Shown: piece after piece, positions 17,628 through 37,447 of the stretch
Layout: each line of letters starts with the position of its first letter
How positions within the stretch are numbered: the stretch's first letter is position 1
From: Planctomycetota bacterium
GTDB lineage: Bacteria > Planctomycetota > Phycisphaerae > Phycisphaerales > SM1A02
Direction: 5' to 3'
DNA length: 37,484 nucleotides
NCBI GenBank assembly: GCA_017859745.1
Contig: JAFMML010000012.1
Location: forward strand, 18,213-55,696
The notes under the pieces: model-generated
What the model was told of the DNA's origin: nothing
What the model saw: only the letters and a program-made list of their open reading frames with translations
Database searches by the model: none
Position numbers and translations under genes: made by a program

Positions 17628-18635
17628 TCACGCCGTCGTCGTCGCCCGTTCGAGTCGATCGAGAATGGTCGACCACAACCCCACGCGAGATGGCGGGCGT
17701 TCGATGAGGATCGCCGAGAAGCCCGCCTGATCCACCTCCCGAAGCACCGCGTAGAGCCGGGCCGCGTACGCCTCGGCGTCCTTGGGCATGGACATGCGTC
17801 CGTGCGGCCGCGGCACGTCGAGATCGCTGGTGGCGACGACGGCGCAGGGTTCGCGGCGCTCGGCGAGCGCCTGCCGAAGACCGGCGAGGTCGAGCAGCAG
17901 CGCGGGCGTCCGCGGGCTGTAGTGCCGCGCCGCCGTGCCGGGACTCGCCCCCTGCGCCGACATGGGCGTCGTGTCGATCTCGCCCAGCGCCTCGACGAGC
18001 TGCTCGGGCAGCACCGAGCCGGGGCGGAGAAGGCGAGGCGGATCCGCGACGAGATCGACGACGGTGCTCTCGACGCCGACTCGACTCGGTCCCCCATCGA
18101 TCACGAGCAGCTCCGAGGCGTTCGCGAAGTCGGCCAGCACATGCGCCGCCGAGGTCGGCGAGATGTGGCCGGAACGGTTGGCCGAGGGCGCCGCGATCGG
18201 CGCCCCGAACGCCGTCAGCAGGGCTCGGGCCACCGGATGCGCCGGACACCGCACCGCGACCGTGTCCCTGCCGCCGGTCGCCGACGGCGACATGCCGGGC
18301 CCGCGAGGAAGGACCATGGTGAGCGGCCCCGGCCAGAATCGCCGGCCAAGGTCCGCCAGCATTCCTGCCTGGCGAGGCGTGGGACACGCCACCAGACCGA
18401 CCTCACCCGGCGTCGCCACGTGGGCGATGAGCGGGTTGTCTCCGGGCCGGCCCTTCAACGCGTACAGCCGGGCGAGTGCCGACTCGTCGGTGCATGATGC
18501 GCCGAGGCCGTAGACGGTCTCGGTCGGAAACGCGACGAGCCGCCCCTGCCGCAGCCACTGGGCCGCCAGCAGGATCGACTGGTCGTCCGCGGGCAACGAG
18601 TTCACCGACGCCACCGGGGGCACGGGCGTCGTCAC
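17628..18635 (-). CDS. tsaC: L-threonylcarbamoyl-AMP synthase (Sua5/YwlC type)
   Basis: This enzyme makes threonylcarbamoyl-AMP from threonine, bicarbonate and ATP for the t6A modification at A37 of ANN-decoding tRNAs. The 335-residue product is the long two-domain (Sua5) form. The YrdC domain at about 15-200 has GRLVAFPTETVYGLGA, LKGRPGDNPLIAHV, FWPGPLTMVL, VAVRCPAHPVARALL and PIAAPSANRSGHISPT. A linker then leads to a C-terminal Sua5 domain beginning PGTAARHYSPRTP. The GTG start overlaps the stop of the TolC-type gene (GTGA), which implies coupled translation. The frame is open far upstream only because it runs beneath the TolC gene. Confidence 0.94.
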   Translation of the reverse strand: MTTPVPPVASVNSLPADDQSILLAAQWLRQGRLVAFPTETVYGLGASCTDESALARLYALKGRPGDNPLIAHVATPGEVGLVACPTPRQAGMLADLGRRFWPGPLTMVLPRGPGMSPSATGGRDTVAVRCPAHPVARALLTAFGAPIAAPSANRSGHISPTSAAHVLADFANASELLVIDGGPSRVGVESTVVDLVADPPRLLRPGSVLPEQLVEALGEIDTTPMSAQGASPGTAARHYSPRTPALLLDLAGLRQALAERREPCAVVATSDLDVPRPHGRMSMPKDAEAYAARLYAVLREVDQAGFSAILIERPPSRVGLWSTILDRLERATTTA

Positions 18636-20446
18636 GGAGCCTCCGCCGAGACGTTCTCGCCGGCATCGGGAAGCGCCAGTTCGATGCGGTTCATCTCGAG
18701 ACCGGTGCCCATCGCCCGCTGCAGGTTGGCGATGGCGACGTTGTACTCCACCAACGCAGCCACTTCGGTCGCCTGCGCGAGGGCCAGGCCGTTCTGGCGT
18801 TGGAACTTCAGGTTCAGGAACTCCGGCGTCAGACTCGCGCGGGTGCGCTCGAGCACCCGCAGCGCCCGCAGGTTCTCCGCGGCCGCGATTCTCGACGCCC
18901 GGGTCTGACCGATCAGCTGCCACGCCGCGACGACGTCGCGCAGGGCGATCCGTACCGCAAGCACCGTCTGCTGGATCGCCTGCCGGTAGCCGAGCACCGC
19001 GCCGGACCGCCGCAGCCTCGCCTGCCGGTACTCCGCCTCGGCAGCCCGGTTGCCGATCGGCTGGCTGAACTGCAGGCCGACCACATAGTCGATGAAGTTG
19101 GCCTGCCCGAGTTCGTTCCAGGCGTTGCCGAAGTCGCCACCGAGGCCGAAGTAGGCCATCTCCGCGGCGAGGTCGAGCTGCGGAAGTCGCCCGTTGTCGG
19201 CGACGAGTTCGCGAATCGCGGCGTCGTCGAGCGAGAGCAGCGACTGCTGCACCGTCGGCGACTCGCGGACCGCGGTGGCGAGCACCTCGGCGAGATCGAA
19301 CTCCAGCGGCGTCGAGACCATCCAGTCCGCGGGCACGATGGTGGTCTCGGCGCCGAGTGGGTACCGGGGATCGTTGAGCAGCGCCTTGAGGCGATCGACC
19401 GCGACGCCGACGTCGCGGCGGACTCGGATCACCTCGGCCTTGCGGCTCTCGACGGTCGCCACGGCGTCGGCGAAGTCCGCAAGCGTCACGTCGAGCTGCT
19501 GCCGCCGCTCGAGGATGTCGCGCACGTCCTCGCCGACCTCGACGAGCCACTGCCGGATCGCCAGGCGTTGCCGAGCAAGCACGAGGGTCCAGTACGCCGC
19601 CTCGGTGTCGGCGACGACCGCCAGCAGGCGCTCCCGAAGCGCCTGCAGACTTCGGCGATCCGCGTTGCGGGCCAGCGCCACCCGCGCGGTGTTGACGTCG
19701 CCGCCGAATCCCCGCAGCAGCGGCTGCTCCAGCGCCAAGGTCAGCGAACTGTCCCACGCCGGGTTGGGCGACAAGGTCAGTCCGGCGAGGAGATTCTCGT
19801 TTCGCCCACCCGCCGCGGTCACCGAGACCGTCGCTCCCGAGGGCAGGAACTGGCTCAGTCCGGCCTCGTAGGCGAACAGCCGACTGTCGGTGCCCCCCGG
19901 ATTGACCTCGACCGCCGGCCCTCCACCCGGAGGCGTGACCAGCACCATTTGACCGGGCTGGTCGGTTCGCCCGAAGCCGGTGCCGGCGAACAGGACCGCG
20001 TCGAAGATCGCCTCGGCCTTGATGATCTCCGCCTGACCGATCGCCTGATCGATGCGGGCGGCCTGCACGCCGAGGTTGTTCCGGACTGCTGCGGCGATCG
20101 CCTCCTGCAAACCGAGGCTCGCCTGTGGGGGCGTGGATCCGAGGAGATCACGGCCCACGTCCAGGCGAGGACCCCCATCCTCGATTTGGGGACCGAGGGC
20201 ATCGAGTTCCGCCCTGCGGGGAGCCAACGCCTCCTCGACGGGCGTCTCCGCCACCTCCAGCGCGACGATGGGAGTCTCGTCGGCCTCGGGCAGCGCCTCG
20301 CGTCGCGCCGTCTCCGCCACCACCTGCTCGAGGGGATCCGCGAGGGATGCCCGGTAGGGGCGACTGCACGAGGCCGCCGAGGCCGCGGCGCAGATCGCGA
20401 GCGGCAGGACGAATCGGCGAAGGTGAGAGCGGGACGGTCGTGGCAT
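18632..20446 (-). CDS. TolC-family outer-membrane efflux lipoprotein
   Basis: TolC-type proteins form trimeric channels through the outer membrane and periplasm for efflux or type I secretion. The 604-residue product starts with a lipoprotein signal peptide (FVLPLAICAAASAASC, lipid-anchored Cys27). After a Pro/Glu-rich linker come two homologous halves rich in long helices, e.g. GLQEAIAAAVRNNLGVQAARIDQA and LAEVLATAVRESPTVQQSLLSL, the start of each repeat, with coiled-coil stretches between. Beta strands such as LTLALEQPLLRGFG and VGLQFSQPIGNR fit the barrel. No inner-membrane pump or membrane-fusion gene is adjacent. Starts at 20446 and 20473 are both possible; 20446 places the signal peptide best. 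It overlaps the downstream tsaC-type gene. Confidence 0.9.
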   Translation of the reverse strand: MPRPSRSHLRRFVLPLAICAAASAASCSRPYRASLADPLEQVVAETARREALPEADETPIVALEVAETPVEEALAPRRAELDALGPQIEDGGPRLDVGRDLLGSTPPQASLGLQEAIAAAVRNNLGVQAARIDQAIGQAEIIKAEAIFDAVLFAGTGFGRTDQPGQMVLVTPPGGGPAVEVNPGGTDSRLFAYEAGLSQFLPSGATVSVTAAGGRNENLLAGLTLSPNPAWDSSLTLALEQPLLRGFGGDVNTARVALARNADRRSLQALRERLLAVVADTEAAYWTLVLARQRLAIRQWLVEVGEDVRDILERRQQLDVTLADFADAVATVESRKAEVIRVRRDVGVAVDRLKALLNDPRYPLGAETTIVPADWMVSTPLEFDLAEVLATAVRESPTVQQSLLSLDDAAIRELVADNGRLPQLDLAAEMAYFGLGGDFGNAWNELGQANFIDYVVGLQFSQPIGNRAAEAEYRQARLRRSGAVLGYRQAIQQTVLAVRIALRDVVAAWQLIGQTRASRIAAAENLRALRVLERTRASLTPEFLNLKFQRQNGLALAQATEVAALVEYNVAIANLQRAMGTGLEMNRIELALPDAGENVSAEAP

Positions 20447-20511
20447 CGGGAAACCGGTCGGGCGTCGCAGCATGCTCGTGCTCGATACGGCATCGAGACG
20501 AGGGGTCGCCA

Positions 20512-20540
20512 ATCGTACGGTCGGGCGCCAAGGTGGTCAG
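20512..20540 (-). promoter_or_regulatory. Promoter of the tolC-like/tsaC operon
   Basis: On the minus strand CTGACC (20535-20540), a 17-nt spacer and TACGAT (20512-20517) match four of six bases in each consensus hexamer. Transcription would start near 20505, leaving a leader of about 60 nt before the ATG at 20446. Confidence 0.5.
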
Positions 20541-32513: not shown

Positions 32514-32524
32514 GGATCGAGGGG

Positions 32525-32581
32525 GACCCGTCGGACGGGTCGGACCTGTCAGACACGTCGGACCTGTCGGACCCGCCGACC
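32525..32581. repeat. Array of 9-bp units GACNNGTCG (six units)
   Basis: Six consecutive 9-bp units lie between the convergent ends of ftsH and uvrC: GACCCGTCG, GACGGGTCG, GACCTGTCA, GACACGTCG, GACCTGTCG, GACCCGCCG. Each is an 8-bp dyad GAC-NN-GTC plus one G, with the central two bases variable. The first two units are mutually complementary (GACCCGTC/GACGGGTC). The same unit recurs in an array at 35241-35309. Translation gives Ser-Asp-Arg/Leu triplets, but no gene is credible here. Confidence 0.85.
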
Positions 32582-32582
32582 T

Positions 32583-34133
32583 TCAACTCGCCTCAGGCTC
32601 GCCGGACTGCTCCGGCCCGTCGGCCTTTCGCGAGGTCTTTCGAGAGGTCTTCCGCTTGACCGGTCCCGCGTCCGGCATGGTGCGCTTCCGCACCAGCAGA
32701 TGGTGGTAGTGCTGCGCGAAGCGGTGCGCCTCGTCGCGGATCGCCTGACAGAGCTTCAACCCCGGGTTCTCGCGGCCGAGGCGAATCGCTTCCTGCTCGC
32801 CGGGCAGGAAGATCAGTTCCTCCTTCTTGGCGAGGCCGATCACGATCGGGGGCCGCGCCCCGAGCCCTGCGAAGACCTCCATCGCCGCGTTCAGCTGTCC
32901 CTTGCCACCGTCGATCAGGACGAGGTCGGGAAAGAGCTCTTCTCCCGCCGCCGCCTCGCGGTAGCGGCGATCGACGACCTCCTGGATCGCGCGGTAGTCG
33001 TCGTTCTCGACCGACTGGATGCGGTAGCGGCGGTAGCCGTCCTTGAACGGTCGCCCATCGATGAAGCAGACCTTGCTGCCCACGGTCTCGCCGCCGGCGA
33101 GGTGCGCGATGTCGATCGCCTCCATGCAGCGGATCGGATGCTCGGTGCCGAGGGCACGCTGCAGGCTGCGCAGGCCGCCCGCGGGATCGCCGGAGAAGAC
33201 CGTGACCTCGGGTTGCCACTCGAAGTCCACCTCGCCGCGGCGCTTCTCGCGCTCGTCGAGCTTCTCGATCGCCTTGATCTGGTCCCGCAGCGCCGCGGCA
33301 TGCTCGAACTTCAACTGCGTGGAGGCCTCCGCCATCTCGGCCTTCAGTTCGCGAAGCAGGGCGCTTCGCTTCGAGCCCAGAAATCGCACGAAGCGGTCGA
33401 TGTCGCTGCGGTAGGCCTCCGGCGAGATCCGGTCGGCGCAGGGCGCCGAGCACTGGCCGATCGCGTGCAGGAGACAGGGTCGGAACCGACGGTTGGCCGG
33501 ATCACCCGGCACGATGTCGAGTTCGCAGGTGCGGTACTTGAAGACCTTCTGCAGCAGTTGCACCGCTCTCCGCAAACCGTTCGCCGAAACGAACGGGCCG
33601 AGGATGCGGGCCCCCTTGAAGCGGGCGTCGGCGGGATTGCGGGTGATGTAGACCCCCGGCGAGGCGTCGCGGAGCGTCACCGCGAGGTACGGATAGGTCT
33701 TGTCGTCGACGAGGCGGTCGTTGAAGCGGGGACGCGTGTCCTTGATGAGGCGGCTCTCGACGAGGAGCGCCTCCCACTCGCCCTCGCACTCGATGACGTC
33801 GAAGTCCTCGACGACGTCGAGCAGCGGCTGCTTGCGGAAGCCCAGATCCGCCGACGGCACGAAGTAGCTCGAGACCCGGTTCGGCAGCACACCCGCCTTG
33901 CCCACGTACAAGACCTGCCCGGCGGCGTCCTTCATCAGATAGACCCCCGGGACCTTGGGCAGCGACCGGGCCTTGGCGAGCAGGCGGTCGAGTCGGGCCC
34001 GTGGGCCATTTCCGGAAGACCACGACTCCGTCGCCGCCGCCTCGGAGGTGCTCGTCGGCGCGTCACCGCGGCGCGGAGGCCCTTGCGGGTCGCCGGGGTC
34101 GCTGGAATCGGGAACAGATGGCGGCATGGGCAT
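32583..34133 (-). CDS. uvrC: UvrABC system protein C, short form
   Basis: UvrC makes the two incisions around DNA lesions during nucleotide excision repair. The GIY-YIG domain that cuts 3' lies at about 60-140 (PGVYLMKDAAGQVLYVGKA). CSAPC marks the Cys-rich segment, and LKFEHAAALRDQIKAIE is the UVR motif that contacts UvrB. The RNase H-like domain that cuts 5' has EAIDIAHLAGGETVGS, DLVLIDGGKGQLNAA and RDEAHRFA (Asp, Asp and His470 conserved). The protein then stops after a basic tail (RKTSRKADGPEQSGEPEAS) of about 35 residues. The C-terminal helix-hairpin-helix pair present in E. coli UvrC (about 610 residues) is missing from this 516-residue form. No frameshifted HhH remnant follows. Start 34133 is chosen because upstream sequence is low complexity. 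Confidence 0.93.
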   Translation of the reverse strand: MPMPPSVPDSSDPGDPQGPPRRGDAPTSTSEAAATESWSSGNGPRARLDRLLAKARSLPKVPGVYLMKDAAGQVLYVGKAGVLPNRVSSYFVPSADLGFRKQPLLDVVEDFDVIECEGEWEALLVESRLIKDTRPRFNDRLVDDKTYPYLAVTLRDASPGVYITRNPADARFKGARILGPFVSANGLRRAVQLLQKVFKYRTCELDIVPGDPANRRFRPCLLHAIGQCSAPCADRISPEAYRSDIDRFVRFLGSKRSALLRELKAEMAEASTQLKFEHAAALRDQIKAIEKLDEREKRRGEVDFEWQPEVTVFSGDPAGGLRSLQRALGTEHPIRCMEAIDIAHLAGGETVGSKVCFIDGRPFKDGYRRYRIQSVENDDYRAIQEVVDRRYREAAAGEELFPDLVLIDGGKGQLNAAMEVFAGLGARPPIVIGLAKKEELIFLPGEQEAIRLGRENPGLKLCQAIRDEAHRFAQHYHHLLVRKRTMPDAGPVKRKTSRKTSRKADGPEQSGEPEAS

Positions 34134-34282
34134 TGAGGGCGAGTGGCGGGCGAATCGCGGGATTCCGGGACCTCGACGGGCACCCGTTCCGGCATCCGAT
34201 CTAAGGGCGGATCGTCGGTCCGGAGAAGGCGGGGCAGCCTGAACTTGGGGCGTTCTCTCTGCTCCTGAGACTGGACGATGCC
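34134..34282. other. Gap upstream of uvrC without a recognised element
   Basis: About 150 bp separate the uvrC start (minus) from the promoter of the Cys-rich gene (plus). I see no promoter-like box for uvrC on the minus strand. The uvrC frame stays open up to 34481, but the extension is Arg/Pro-rich and unlike UvrC. Confidence 0.4.
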
Positions 34283-34311
34283 TTGAATCGGGTGCGATCG
34301 GGTCGTATTCT
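34283..34311 (+). promoter_or_regulatory. Promoter of the Cys-rich lipoprotein gene
   Basis: TTGAAT (34283-34288), a 17-nt spacer and TATTCT (34306-34311) match four and five of six consensus bases. This is the best plus-strand promoter I see in the window. Transcription would start near 34318, leaving a leader of about 312 nt. Confidence 0.6.
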
Positions 34312-34317
34312 TGGCGA

Positions 34318-34629
34318 AGGGGCGGGGTCTCGCACGAGATTCTCGCAACCGACGGTCGTCGCCAACAGAACACGTTGGCAGGTGTGGCGGCCGGTCCGAT
34401 CGGTGTTCGGATCCGTCCGCCGCCGAGTGTTGGGATTCGCGAACCGTGCTCCGGCATCGACCGGGACACCGACCGAATCATCGCTTCCGTTCGTCGATGT
34501 GATCGGCTCCCGACTCTGGGTCCCCGATTGCAGGTCCCTGAACGCCTTCCAAAAGGCCACCGTCAGCGACCACCGTTTCGTCCACACGACCATCGAGTCA
34601 CCGACCATCGAGTCACCAAGGAGATCACC
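34318..34629 (+). promoter_or_regulatory. Long structured leader, candidate cis-regulatory RNA
   Basis: The presumed 5' leader of the Cys-rich gene contains a 6-bp stem with a 7-nt loop (34361-34366/34374-34379, GCCAAC/GTTGGC), a longer imperfect hairpin (34386-34421, about 13 pairs with one mismatch and one bulge) and a small GCCTT/AAGGC stem (34543-34556). Two perfect 14-bp direct copies of ACCATCGAGTCACC lie at 34589-34602 and 34604-34617, right before the Shine-Dalgarno (AAGGAG, 34618-34623). It matches no riboswitch class that I recognise. It contains no good ORF. Confidence 0.4.
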
Positions 34630-35112
34630 ATGAGCATGCTTCGACTGTTCGCCGCCGCCACCATCGTCGCCGCCCTCGGCGCCTGCGCATCCACTGGCAA
34701 CGACAGCTCCGCCAACCCCGGTGCGGTCAGCGGCGGCGCCGCCAAGGCCGAGTGCTGCGGTTCCTGCGGCGGTGAGGCCAAGATGGGCGCCGTCAGCGGC
34801 AAGAGCGACTGCTCCGCCAAGAGCGACTGCGCCACCTCCTGCGGCGGTGAGGCCAAGATGGGCGCCGTCAGCGGCAAGAGCGACTGCTCCGCCAAGAGCG
34901 ACTGCGCCAGCTCCTGCAGCGGCGAGGCCAAGATGGGCGCCGTCAGCGGCAAGAGCGACTGCGCCACCTCCTGCGGCGGCGAGGCCAAGATGGGCGCCGT
35001 CAGCGGCAAGAGCGACTGCTCGAGCCCCTGCGGCGAGAAGAAGATGGAGACCAAGATGGGCGCCGTCAGCGGCAAGAGCGGCTGCTGCCCCATGAGCAAG
35101 AGCGACTGCTGA
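34630..35112 (+). CDS. Cys/Met-rich repeat lipoprotein, GAVSGKSDC repeats
   Basis: I do not recognise this 160-residue protein. It has a lipoprotein signal (LFAAATIVAALGAC, Cys19), so it is anchored to a membrane facing the periplasm. The mature part has 16 further cysteines (42, 43, 46, 61, 67, 71, 86, 92, 96, 111, 115, 130, 134, 152, 153, 160), seven methionines, many Gly/Ser/Lys/Asp, no aromatic residue and no histidine. It is built from six copies of a motif: one degenerate (31-42) and five close to KMGAVSGKSDC, ending at Cys61, 86, 111, 130 and 152. Spacing is 25, 25, 19 and 22 residues, with SAKSDC and SCGGEA between. The DNA repeats are nearly identical. Such a disordered, thiol-rich chain could bind soft metals or act as a thiol buffer; this is inference. 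AAGGAG at 34618-34623 sets the start. Confidence 0.85.
   Translation: MSMLRLFAAATIVAALGACASTGNDSSANPGAVSGGAAKAECCGSCGGEAKMGAVSGKSDCSAKSDCATSCGGEAKMGAVSGKSDCSAKSDCASSCSGEAKMGAVSGKSDCATSCGGEAKMGAVSGKSDCSSPCGEKKMETKMGAVSGKSGCCPMSKSDC
34771..35085 (+). repeat. In-frame tandem repeats inside the Cys-rich gene
   Basis: Near-identical copies start at 34771, 34846 and 34921 (75-bp periods) and at 34978 and 35044 (57- and 66-bp periods). Synonymous positions are conserved as well, so the copies arose by recent duplication or are homogenised. Copy number could vary between strains, and assembly of this stretch should be checked. Confidence 0.85.
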
Positions 35113-35191: not shown

Positions 35192-35231
35192 GAACCGCCC
35201 ACCGCTCTCTCGACGGTGGGCGGTTCTCTTT
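35192..35231 (+). terminator. Intrinsic terminator of the Cys-rich gene
   Basis: A perfect 13-bp stem (35192-35204 with 35214-35226, GAACCGCCCACCG/CGGTGGGCGGTTC) with a 9-nt loop is followed by TCTTT. It is the longest perfect stem I found in the window and isolates the Cys-rich gene from the DUF4920 gene. Confidence 0.88.
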
Positions 35232-35240
35232 GGAGGGCAC

Positions 35241-35309
35241 CAGATGTCGGACCGGTCGGACCGGTCGGACGGGTTGGACGTGTCGGACATGTCGGACGGG
35301 TCGGACCGA
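35241..35309. repeat. Second array of 9-bp units GACNNGTCG
   Basis: Six full units (35250-35303) are flanked by degenerate ones (CAGATGTCG before, GACCGA after): GACCGGTCG twice, GACGGGTTG, GACGTGTCG, GACATGTCG, GACGGGTCG. The 8-bp core GACNNGTC is a perfect palindrome in GACCGGTC and GACATGTC. The array starts 10 bp after the terminator of the Cys-rich gene and is in the same orientation as the array at 32525-32581. Confidence 0.85.
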
Positions 35310-35403: not shown

Positions 35404-36105
35404 ATGGCCCGCCGGAGTCTCCGAATGTCCCGATGCCGCTCGCTCGCCTTGCTTGCTCTCCTTGCCGCAGTCGTTTCCGGGTGCGCTTCGAAGGGCCCCT
35501 ACCAGACCGCCGTTTCGGAGGACTGGTCGCCGTATGGCCCGGTGCTGTCCGGCGATCCCCCGGCGACCAGCATGGACGAGATCGTCTCCTCCGAGCCGAC
35601 CGGCCCGGTGGTGCTGATGGGAACCGTCCGCGGGGTCTGTCAGACCAAGGGGTGCTGGATGCAGATGACCCCTGAAGGCGCCACCGACCCGATGTTCGTC
35701 AAGTTCCGCGACTACGGCTTCTTCGTGCCTCGCAACGCGGCGGGCCGCTACGTCGTGATCCGGGGCACCCCGGTCTACACCGAGGTCTCCGTCGAGATGC
35801 TCCGCCACTACGCCATGGATGCCGGACGCACCGAAGCCGAGATCATGGCCATCACCGAGCCGCAGCGCCGCATCGAGTTCATCGCCGACAGCGTGCTCAT
35901 CCAGGGCCGTGGCCTCGAGGCCCCCTACGTCTCCGAAGTCGAGGAGAACTGCGAGCCCGCCCCCACGGAAACGCCGGCCGACGACGCGTCCACGGAATCC
36001 CCGACGGACCCGGCGGAACCGGTTCCCGTGGAAACACCTCCGACCGCCGAGCCTGCCGAGGAGCCGGTCGGCGCCAGTCTGCTCGACGACCCGGGCGTTC
36101 AATGA
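35404..36105 (+). CDS. DUF4920-type lipoprotein
   Basis: The 233-residue product has a lipoprotein signal (SLALLALLAAVVSGC, Cys27). The core at about 60-175 fits the DUF4920 family: VVLMGTVRGVCQTKGCWMQM (Cys79 and Cys84), then FVKFRDYGFFVPRNAAGRYVVIRGTPV, then VSVEMLRHYAMDAGRTEAEI. The family's function is not established to my knowledge; it has a small beta-barrel (OB-like) look with the conserved CxxKGCWM and FxDYGFFVP motifs, so a metal or redox role is possible. The C-terminal 60 residues are a Pro/Thr/Glu-rich low-complexity tail. An ATG at 35425 is an alternative start that still keeps the signal. Dihydroorotase follows 31 bp later and may be co-transcribed. Confidence 0.85.
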   Translation: MARRSLRMSRCRSLALLALLAAVVSGCASKGPYQTAVSEDWSPYGPVLSGDPPATSMDEIVSSEPTGPVVLMGTVRGVCQTKGCWMQMTPEGATDPMFVKFRDYGFFVPRNAAGRYVVIRGTPVYTEVSVEMLRHYAMDAGRTEAEIMAITEPQRRIEFIADSVLIQGRGLEAPYVSEVEENCEPAPTETPADDASTESPTDPAEPVPVETPPTAEPAEEPVGASLLDDPGVQ

Positions 36106-36136
36106 ACACCCGTCCAACCAGAGCCGGAGGCGAGGC

Positions 36137-37447
36137 GTGAGTCGTCTGCTGCTCCGCGGTGGTCGACTGGTCGATCCCGCGTCCGGCTTCGACGGCACCG
36201 CCGACCTGCTGATCGAAGGCGACCGTGTCGAGGCGATCTCGGCGAGTCCGATTCCCCCGTCCGCGATCGGCGACGCTCGCGTCCTCGACTGCGAAGGTCG
36301 GATCGTCGCCCCGGGGCTGATCGACGGCCATGTCCACCTGCGTGAACCCGGCGGCGAGCGATCGGAGACGATCGCGAGCGGAACCGCGGCCGCCGCGGCG
36401 GGCGGCTTCACCACCGTCTGCTGCATGCCCAACACCCAACCCGCCCTCGACAGCGCGGCGTTGATCCACTTCATCCGCCTCCGCGGCGCCGAGATCGGAC
36501 GCTGCCGGGTGTTTCCCATCGGCGCCGCCACCGAGGGTCGGCGCGGCGAGCGACTCGCCCCGATGCTCGCGATGGCCGCCGCCGGGGCGGTCGGGTTCTC
36601 CGACGACGGCGACGTGGTCGCGGATGCGGCCATGATGCGGAAGGTCCTGCGGACCTGCGCGGCGATCGGGCGTCCCTTCCTCCAGCACTGCCAGGAACCC
36701 ACGCTGACCACGGGGGCCAGCATGCACGAGGGCGAACGGTCGGCGCGGCTCGGCCTCGTCGGGTGGCCCCGTGAGGCCGAGGAGTTGATCGTCGAGCGGG
36801 ATCTTCGGCTCAACCGCTCGATCGGCGCCCGCTATCACGCCCAGCATCTCTCGGCCGCTGGAAGCGTCGAGGCGTTGCGGGCCGCACGAAATCGAGGCGA
36901 ACCGGTCAGCGGCGAGGCCACCCCCCACCACCTGCTGCTGACCGACGAGGCGTGCGAGACCTACGACACCCGCGCCAAGATGAACCCTCCGCTGCGGGAG
37001 GAGTCCGATCGCCTGGCGCTGGTCGAAGGCGTTGCGGACGGCACCATCACGATCCTCGCCACCGACCACGCGCCCCATGCCACCGAGAGCAAGGAGGTCG
37101 ACTTCGCCTCGGCGAGCTTCGGGATCGTCGGCGTCGAGGGCGCCCTGCCCCTCTATGCCGAAGCGTTGGTGGCGAGCGGCGCCATCGAGTGGCCTCGCCT
37201 GCTCGCCATGATGACCGTCGAACCCGCGAAGCTCCACGGCCTCGACACCCAGGGCTTCGGTCGGCTCGCCGAAGGCGGCCCCGCCGACGTGACCGTCATC
37301 GATCCCACCCTGGCGTGGACGATCGACCCGGATCGGTTCGAGACGCTCGGACGCAACACGCCCTTCGCAGGACGCGAGGTCGTCGGTCGAGCCACCCACA
37401 CGATCGTCGCTGGCGAGATCAGATTCGAACTCGGCGCCGGGACCTGA
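36137..37447 (+). CDS. pyrC: Dihydroorotase, class I
   Basis: Dihydroorotase closes carbamoyl-aspartate to dihydroorotate in pyrimidine synthesis. The 436-residue protein has the amidohydrolase metal motif GLIDGHVHLREPGG (His65, His67), MPNTQPALDS, the later ligand region FLQHCQEPTLT, HHLLLTDE, KMNPPLR, and ATDHAPHATESK with catalytic Asp310. The C terminus contains GRLAEGGPADVTVIDP and the closing NTPFAGREVVG, both typical of class I enzymes. Length agrees with the family (about 425-440). GGAGG (36126-36130) lies 6 nt before the GTG start. The usual partner pyrB is not in the window, though it might lie beyond another end. Nothing recognisable is in the last 37 bp. Confidence 0.95.
   Translation: MSRLLLRGGRLVDPASGFDGTADLLIEGDRVEAISASPIPPSAIGDARVLDCEGRIVAPGLIDGHVHLREPGGERSETIASGTAAAAAGGFTTVCCMPNTQPALDSAALIHFIRLRGAEIGRCRVFPIGAATEGRRGERLAPMLAMAAAGAVGFSDDGDVVADAAMMRKVLRTCAAIGRPFLQHCQEPTLTTGASMHEGERSARLGLVGWPREAEELIVERDLRLNRSIGARYHAQHLSAAGSVEALRAARNRGEPVSGEATPHHLLLTDEACETYDTRAKMNPPLREESDRLALVEGVADGTITILATDHAPHATESKEVDFASASFGIVGVEGALPLYAEALVASGAIEWPRLLAMMTVEPAKLHGLDTQGFGRLAEGGPADVTVIDPTLAWTIDPDRFETLGRNTPFAGREVVGRATHTIVAGEIRFELGAGT

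Follow-up and report, generated by a model that had tools for sequence, protein, structure and literature searches.

The 37,484-nucleotide stretch of planctomycete DNA analysed here (the window) encodes a 160-residue, cysteine-rich repeat lipoprotein, which, as judged by sequence comparison, belongs to an unnamed, fast-evolving and lineage-restricted family. A protein of this kind holds a fixed position in 38 of the 41 genomic regions surveyed, most of them chosen for a match, and recurs there in 13 of 16 genomes selected because no match had been detected, yet none of the libraries searched offers a name, profile or function for it. These proteins may constitute a new class of envelope polythiols: disordered, lipid-tethered repeats, passed on vertically at one locus, that favour CC, Cx3C and Cx5C and shun CxC and CxxC. 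They would furnish the envelope with a lining of thiols, serving either as an extracytoplasmic buffer for metals or oxidants, with a chemistry unlike that of metallothioneins, or as a flexible cross-linker set by redox state; we place this proposal just short of an even chance. With somewhat less assurance, we tentatively read the protein as a polythiol buffer, disordered and tethered to the membrane, that takes up soft metals or oxidants, favouring a constitutive buffer over a disulfide cross-linked mesh, which is a weaker but genuine possibility. Small, Cys-rich exported proteins are an already known kind; what is distinctive here is the Cys-spacing rule and the strikingly fixed locus.

The lipoprotein gene and its product

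Recounting bore out the original prediction in its description of the gene (Table 1): the open reading frame, its coordinates, the 160-residue product, the 16 non-lipid cysteines, the seven methionines and the lack of histidine and aromatic residues in the mature part are all correct, and so are the six GAVSG motifs and the similarity of the repeat DNA, recounted in both protein and DNA. The mature part comprises 142 residues, including 17 Cys (the predicted lipid Cys, C19, plus 16), 7 Met and 16 Lys, and is devoid of His, Phe, Trp, Tyr, Leu, Ile, Gln and Arg; the sole aromatic residue of the precursor, F7, lies inside the signal peptide. Four of the six GAVSG motifs read GAVSGKSDC, one reads GAVSGKSGC and one is divergent. 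At the DNA level, a 75-nt unit is present in 2.7 copies with 97% matches, a second, 57-nt unit in 3.2 copies with 87% matches, and five 103-nt copies stand in register with 64-100% identity. Modules 2-6 thus appear, from their DNA, to be the product of recent tandem duplication.

Table 1. Features of the lipoprotein locus and its surroundings, in window coordinates
Feature	Position	Strand	Remarks
Outer-membrane efflux (OEP) protein	18632-20512		
Tandem GTCGGACNN-like 9-mer array	32524-32573		
uvrC	32583-34481	-	named by eye; true start uncertain
Shine-Dalgarno-like AAGGAG	34618-34623	+	upstream of the ATG; direct sequence reading
Cys-rich repeat lipoprotein gene	34630-35112	+	160 aa; based on ORF, relatives and dN/dS
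Signal peptide ending in lipobox LGAC	34630-34683	+	lipobox position common to relatives
Alternative start, second ATG	34636		in frame
Codon of predicted lipid Cys, C19	34684-34686		
Module 1, PGAVSGGAAKAECCGSC type	34711-34776	+	close match to congener G001
Modules 2-6, KMGAVSGKS(D/G)C type	34777-35085	+	DNA strongly alike
C-terminal CPMSKSDC	35086-35109	+	counterpart of the family's CPx(S/T) tail
13-14 bp hairpin	35192-35226		between lipoprotein and DUF4920 genes; starts 80 nt past the stop
Tandem GTCGGACNN-like 9-mer array	35246-35308		
DUF4920 lipoprotein	35404-36105	+	PF16267, E=1.7e-26
pyrC-like dihydroorotase	36119-37447	+	Amidohydro_1/DHOase; conserved downstream flank

The original prediction could assign the protein to no family, and neither could we: the window protein had no match in Pfam or NCBIfam at E<=1, and neither it nor other members significantly matched PDB sequences. 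When 25 members were compared with Pfam, no match was significant; the sub-threshold ones were to LPAM_1, a lipobox model (two members), YHR052C-B (one member, E 0.089) and DUF6491 (one member, E 0.098). No description of such a Cys-rich lipoprotein family was found in one open-licence library of papers. AlphaFold, run on an alignment of six rows, gave the window protein a mean pLDDT of 33 and no secondary structure.

Codon bias gave no clear sign of high expression (p<0.05 in 2 of 7 genomes), Rfam had no regulatory RNA match for the lipoprotein locus, and neither a sigma-70 site nor a TATA(A/C)T-like -10 element was found in the region upstream of the window gene. Across 58 upstream regions, a TATA(A/C)T-like -10 element reached the top score in 13, with a mean best score of 5.6 versus 4.4 in mononucleotide shuffles. 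The hairpin that follows the gene is called by the terminator scan on the minus strand only. In the 5' leaders of seven loci (L010, L012, L013, L014, L016, L036 and L062), two kinds of hairpin were picked out by eye, one CCCGCGTGT-CGCGGG-like and the other GTCCG..ACACGCGGAC-like; their arms could cross-pair into a possible alternative-structure leader. The 9-mer of the two tandem arrays listed in Table 1 is dispersed genome-wide, since its three-unit pattern (up to 1 mismatch) was counted 160 times in the genome to which the window belongs, 111 on one strand and 49 on the other with overlapping units included, versus 0 times for a reversed-pattern control.

Distribution and genomic setting

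Homologues in related genomes, which the original prediction had proposed to look for, do exist. Used as a query, the window protein gave a match in 7 of 61 related genomes, one of which (L007) was false, whereas a relative from G017 matched 53 of the 181 genomes of the window's own family in its order (hereafter f1), in 14 of 45 genera, at E<=0.001. A 25-member profile run against 397 genomes of the class returned 30 matches, all in one order (24 in f1 and 4 and 2, respectively, in two other families, f2 and f4), and 2 matches, both in f1, in a phylum sample of 294. Combined, sequence matches cover 66 of 181 f1 genomes (the 53 plus G022, G032 and eleven found by the profile), and for roughly half of these genomes the protein itself was read. 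Two matches proved not to be members. The false one (G018:C34) lies antisense to transport genes, the true G018 copy being elsewhere, and a second match in the window's own genome (G000:C69) is a different, His/Gly-rich protein, alike only in its signal peptide and a single PGAVSG.

The position of the gene reveals relatives that sequence searches do not. From the f1 genomes absent from the match lists, eighteen were taken, and pyrC could be located in 16 of them; in 13 of these, a short Cys-rich exported protein is encoded immediately before pyrC, at the equivalent position and in matching orientation, its sequence having diverged beyond the reach of the searches. No Cys-rich protein was found in this slot in G011, G023 and G030. 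No match was found in the sampled genomes outside the window's order, but because the searches miss diverged members even within f1, such absence carries little weight. Outside f1, the gene is patchy: the sequence preceding pheS was read over as much as 1.5 kb in 22 genomes, and none of the 20 non-f1 ones yielded a convincing Cys lipoprotein, two short 4-Cys ORFs (G044 and G045) having been set aside. The f2 copies lie beside rplQ and/or pheS at 3 of 4 loci and the f4 copies follow pheT at 2 of 2, these neighbours being named by eye.

The 53 matching genomes, together with the 13 same-slot proteins, exclude an orphan gene. The original prediction had also offered an assembly artefact as a way in which it might fail. 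This is excluded as well: the same architecture recurs, with differing repeat numbers, in many separate genomes, including six public MAG contigs from several projects, some of which are the same records as genomes of our G set. The titles of these contigs refer to Planctomycetaceae, Phycisphaerales or uncultured bacterium, and some mention ponds or ErkenSummer.

For a survey of the locus, we compared 41 regions, the window and 40 others, each spanning 20 kb at most and chosen mostly for a match or a located slot. The order is uvrC on the minus strand, then, on the plus strand, the Cys lipoprotein gene, in some regions a DUF4920 gene, and pyrC. The Cys-rich lipoprotein was placed from its CDS in 34 regions and from an ORF in 3, a long variant occupies 1, and the remaining 3 yielded nothing. 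In all 34 regions with a located CDS, uvrC is divergent from it, and pyrC falls within the region in 33, the contig ending in the other one. Further genes complete a conserved block, bamD-lptE-ftsH-uvrC, the lipoprotein gene and pyrC, with ftsH in 33 and bamD in 28 of the 41 regions (bamD, lptE and pyrC have Pfam support; the names uvrC and ftsH were given by eye). Membership in this block points, at the level of gene order, to vertical inheritance of the lipoprotein gene in f1. Plasmid or phage carriage yielded no match, which, with the low-complexity filter on, is weak evidence.

Several variations on the locus deserve mention. In G014 and G032, the slot beside uvrC holds an exported long variant of 327/344 residues (L084:5134-6117 in G032 and L157:8796-9830 in G014), with VAQ(V/I)(N/K)(A/S)..C repeats, a shared non-repeat C-terminal region and a tail of the LGAVS..CC or LGSISGC type, and without a match in Pfam. 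G014 is counted among the 13 of 16 above, and G032 carries both the long variant and a standard Cys lipoprotein. G117 encodes a second member of the family, a paralogue at an unlinked site (L083:6012-6278). Beyond uvrC, the four regions of genus g60 (L129, L130, L131 and L140) carry cusCBA-type RND efflux genes, accompanied in two of them by a short His-rich exported protein. In seven other regions (L132, L133, L134, L136, L139, L141 and L142; by tblastn also L128 and L145), an MMPL-type RND gene is followed by a small HMA-domain protein; these MMPL-linked HMA-domain proteins lie downstream of pyrC and mostly have a lipobox-like start.

Cysteine content, spacing and selection

Across 64 members, the 6,211 mature residues include 659 Cys (about 10.6%, in part a selection effect, because Cys content helped to decide which proteins entered the set), 709 Lys and 78 Met, but 0 Trp, 0 Tyr, 5 His, 3 Arg, 18 Leu and 5 Ile. 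The original prediction had labelled the protein Cys/Met-rich; the second half of that label does not extend to the family, because 27 of 66 members have no Met in the mature part. The consensus module is (A/M)(P/M)GAV(S/G)xxKSxC(C)xxKxxC, and the repeats come and go, three congeners having six, four and three motifs. Among 33 hand-picked diverse representatives, a GA(V)-type motif is found in 30 and CPx(S/T) in 25, while Cys spacing varies; over all 66 members, CPx(S/T) lies inside the last 25 residues in 49.

The spacing of the cysteines departs clearly from chance, although the counts are not independent events, because members are related and repeats are copies. Among 595 Cys gaps, CC occurs 138 times (shuffle mean 64.5), Cx3C 77 times (46.6) and Cx5C 95 times (37.2), whereas CxxC occurs 11 times (52.0) and CxC never (57.5, the lowest of 1,000 shuffles being 36). 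There is likewise no CxC in the 33 representatives. The number of non-lipid cysteines is odd in 39 of 64 members and in 20 of the 33 representatives.

In ten groups of close relatives, all 65 pairs compared have a dN/dS below 1 (range 0.08 to 0.74), and Cys positions are kept better than other positions in all ten groups, in alignments made by an aligner that rewards Cys matches. Judging from these substitution patterns, the family is under purifying selection, with Cys kept best.

Candidate functions

The original prediction proposed a membrane-anchored metal or thiol sponge, and as a tentative claim, a constitutive polythiol buffer is still the best single reading; it is weakened by the absence of CxC and the rarity of CxxC. 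The precursor would be exported and, as the lipobox suggests, lipidated at C19, leaving a flexible chain tethered in the envelope. In its repeated modules, roughly (A/M)(P/M)GAV(S/G)xxKSxC(C)..K..C, the PGAV turn may serve as a spacer and the Lys-flanked thiols as working groups. The thiols would be held reduced in the periplasm through a DsbD-type electron supply, and the buffer would take up soft metals (Cu(I), Zn, Cd and Hg) as well as oxidants or electrophiles. Consistent with this reading are the metallothionein-like composition and lysine flanks, the preferential conservation of Cys in ten of ten groups, the predicted disorder and the odd Cys counts, which are unlike those of a chain with all cysteines paired internally.

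Metallothioneins provide the closest comparison in composition. As described for SmtA/BmtA and MymT (PMC7558416, PMC12193353), these proteins are small and Cys-rich, with Lys near Cys, virtually no aromatic residues, hardly any His and no predicted apo fold, and the present family has the same low-aromatic, low-His, Cys- and Lys-rich composition. Metallothioneins are, however, cytoplasmic, whereas members of this family are predicted exported lipoproteins, with about 10.6% Cys spread over extended repeat modules, in which CxxC is rare and CxC absent. Of the metallothionein arrangements CxC, CxxC and CC, only the last is enriched. No metallothionein profile or solved sequence was matched in Pfam, NCBIfam (window protein only) or PDB, no significant Pfam match of any kind was found, and no metal regulator was recognised alongside. 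Since CxC never occurs (0 versus 57 expected), the protein is not a canonical metallothionein, and the absence of this classic arrangement and depletion of the other, CxxC, count against the buffer. If it is nonetheless an extracytoplasmic thiol buffer, metallothionein-like chemistry would extend to the envelope, with an unusual Cys spacing. The CxxxC spacing, which is enriched in this family, is typical of copper storage proteins (Csps). Csps also resemble it in having many cysteines, but they are described as rigid four-helix bundles (PMC7558416), whereas no helices were predicted for the window protein (pLDDT 33, on a shallow alignment).

The genomic setting speaks both for and against the buffer. 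The two metal-related families sought, cusA and HMA-domain proteins, occur in 6 of 28 genera (cusA beyond uvrC in 4 of 41 regions, all in one genus; HMA-domain proteins further downstream in 9 of 41 regions, in five genera), although these may be hitch-hikers of vertically inherited blocks. None of the 20 window ORFs scanned belongs to a metal-specific Pfam family, and no SmtB-type regulator was found among them or recognised among the recurrent neighbours, i.e., among linked genes. The original prediction had further suggested induction by copper, silver or oxidative stress. This part finds no support, because the conserved neighbourhood is one of housekeeping genes, the 20 window ORFs scanned include no metal-specific Pfam family and metal-related neighbours are few. 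The housekeeping surroundings, showing no sign of metal control, and the codon bias, from which high expression is not evident, likewise weigh against the buffer.

The chief rival, which we regard as possible though less probable, is a disulfide cross-linked envelope lipoprotein, the chains of which would oxidise mutually or to other envelope proteins to form a flexible mesh. In 16 f1 genomes, 14 of which carry the lipoprotein gene, DsbD_TM was found throughout, a point in favour of the buffer, while VKOR scored over the cut-off in 6 and DsbB in 5. DsbD_TM proteins, however, also serve cytochrome c biogenesis. Neither DsbB nor VKOR is over the cut-off in 6 of the 14 gene-bearing genomes (G002, G017, G019, G079, G015 and G029), as befits a reduced buffer and not a cross-linker, although draft genomes can miss either gene. 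In contrast, one or both are present in the other 8, including the window's own genome (DsbB yes, VKOR no), which fits cross-linking and speaks against the buffer. The two gene-less genomes differ, G011 lacking both and G023 having VKOR. On balance, the Dsb/VKOR content leans, indecisively, toward reduced thiols.

Cross-linking has precedents in the PVC superphylum, and the protein could, with the same limited probability, do the work that chlamydial OmcA or the Cys-rich YTV wall proteins of other planctomycetes do elsewhere. OmcA and OmcB are reported as Cys-rich envelope proteins of this superphylum (PMC2811131), and YTV proteins are reported solely from Planctomycetales (PMC8567305). Like OmcA, a small Cys-rich lipoprotein of a PVC bacterium, members of our family combine a lipobox signal peptide with a Cys-rich mature part. 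By analogy, they perhaps work like a metallothionein or like OmcA. They differ from OmcA, in a comparison made at the family level, in being built of repeats, Lys-rich and nearly without hydrophobic residues, and they have no significant Pfam match; their cross-linking is putative. The likeness to YTV proteins (PF07639) is that of Cys-rich exported planctomycete proteins, but the present ones are short lipoproteins, found within our samples only in the window's order. The YTV domain was not matched by the window protein or the 25 members, and a YTV search of 16 genomes gave 0 matches with a control that was likewise silent.

A cross-linker would also suit a gene that is old in its family and fixed close to bamD and lptE, which belong to outer-membrane biogenesis, the free variation in repeat number, and odd Cys counts, which are compatible with inter-chain bonds. 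The preference for CC, Cx3C and Cx5C and the avoidance of CxC and CxxC are explained by it at least as well as by the buffer. Hydrophobic and aromatic residues for assembly are, however, nearly absent, and significant Pfam matches are lacking. If true, the cross-linker would be these planctomycetes' own Cys-rich envelope protein, replacing the Cys-rich wall proteins of others, and would bear on how planctomycete envelopes are constructed, a question of long standing.

Less likely by far than the buffer or the cross-linker is that PGAV and the C-terminal CPx(S/T), more than the thiols, are the functional elements, serving as recognition sites for a modified peptide, cofactor attachment or partner docking. 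The persistence of both motifs in most of the 33 representatives despite variable Cys spacing is in keeping with this, as is the long variant with VAQ(V/I)-type repeats and another region in two genomes. PGAV may, however, be a mere turn, and no candidate enzyme was recognised among the recurrent neighbours in the 41 regions, of which a minority of clusters were profile-searched.

Copper or zinc delivery together with a DUF4920 or HMA-domain protein, as opposed to bulk buffering, is slightly less probable still. In its favour, 16 of the 41 regions contain a DUF4920 gene, which immediately follows the Cys gene wherever the two co-occur and their order was examined, and 9 contain an HMA-domain protein. 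No region has both a DUF4920 gene and an HMA-domain protein; their mutual exclusion is perhaps a clade effect. Both partners, however, are missing from 16 of 41 regions, and in G011, one of the 16 with DUF4920, this gene stands at the slot without a Cys gene. A C-x4-C-W motif is seen in the window's DUF4920 protein and in most copies read; both of its cysteines are lost in L138, L143 and L144, which tells against delivery, as does a low-confidence DUF4920 model without a match to PDB folds at E<=0.001.

Finally, an ordinary low-complexity lipoprotein without a Cys-specific role, or a non-coding repeat, is very improbable: fast evolution, easy repeat expansion and a slot left empty in three genomes would suit it, but dN/dS below 1 in every pair, better-kept Cys in every group and a Cys-rich exported protein in the slot of 13 of the 16 genomes picked for no sequence match argue strongly otherwise.
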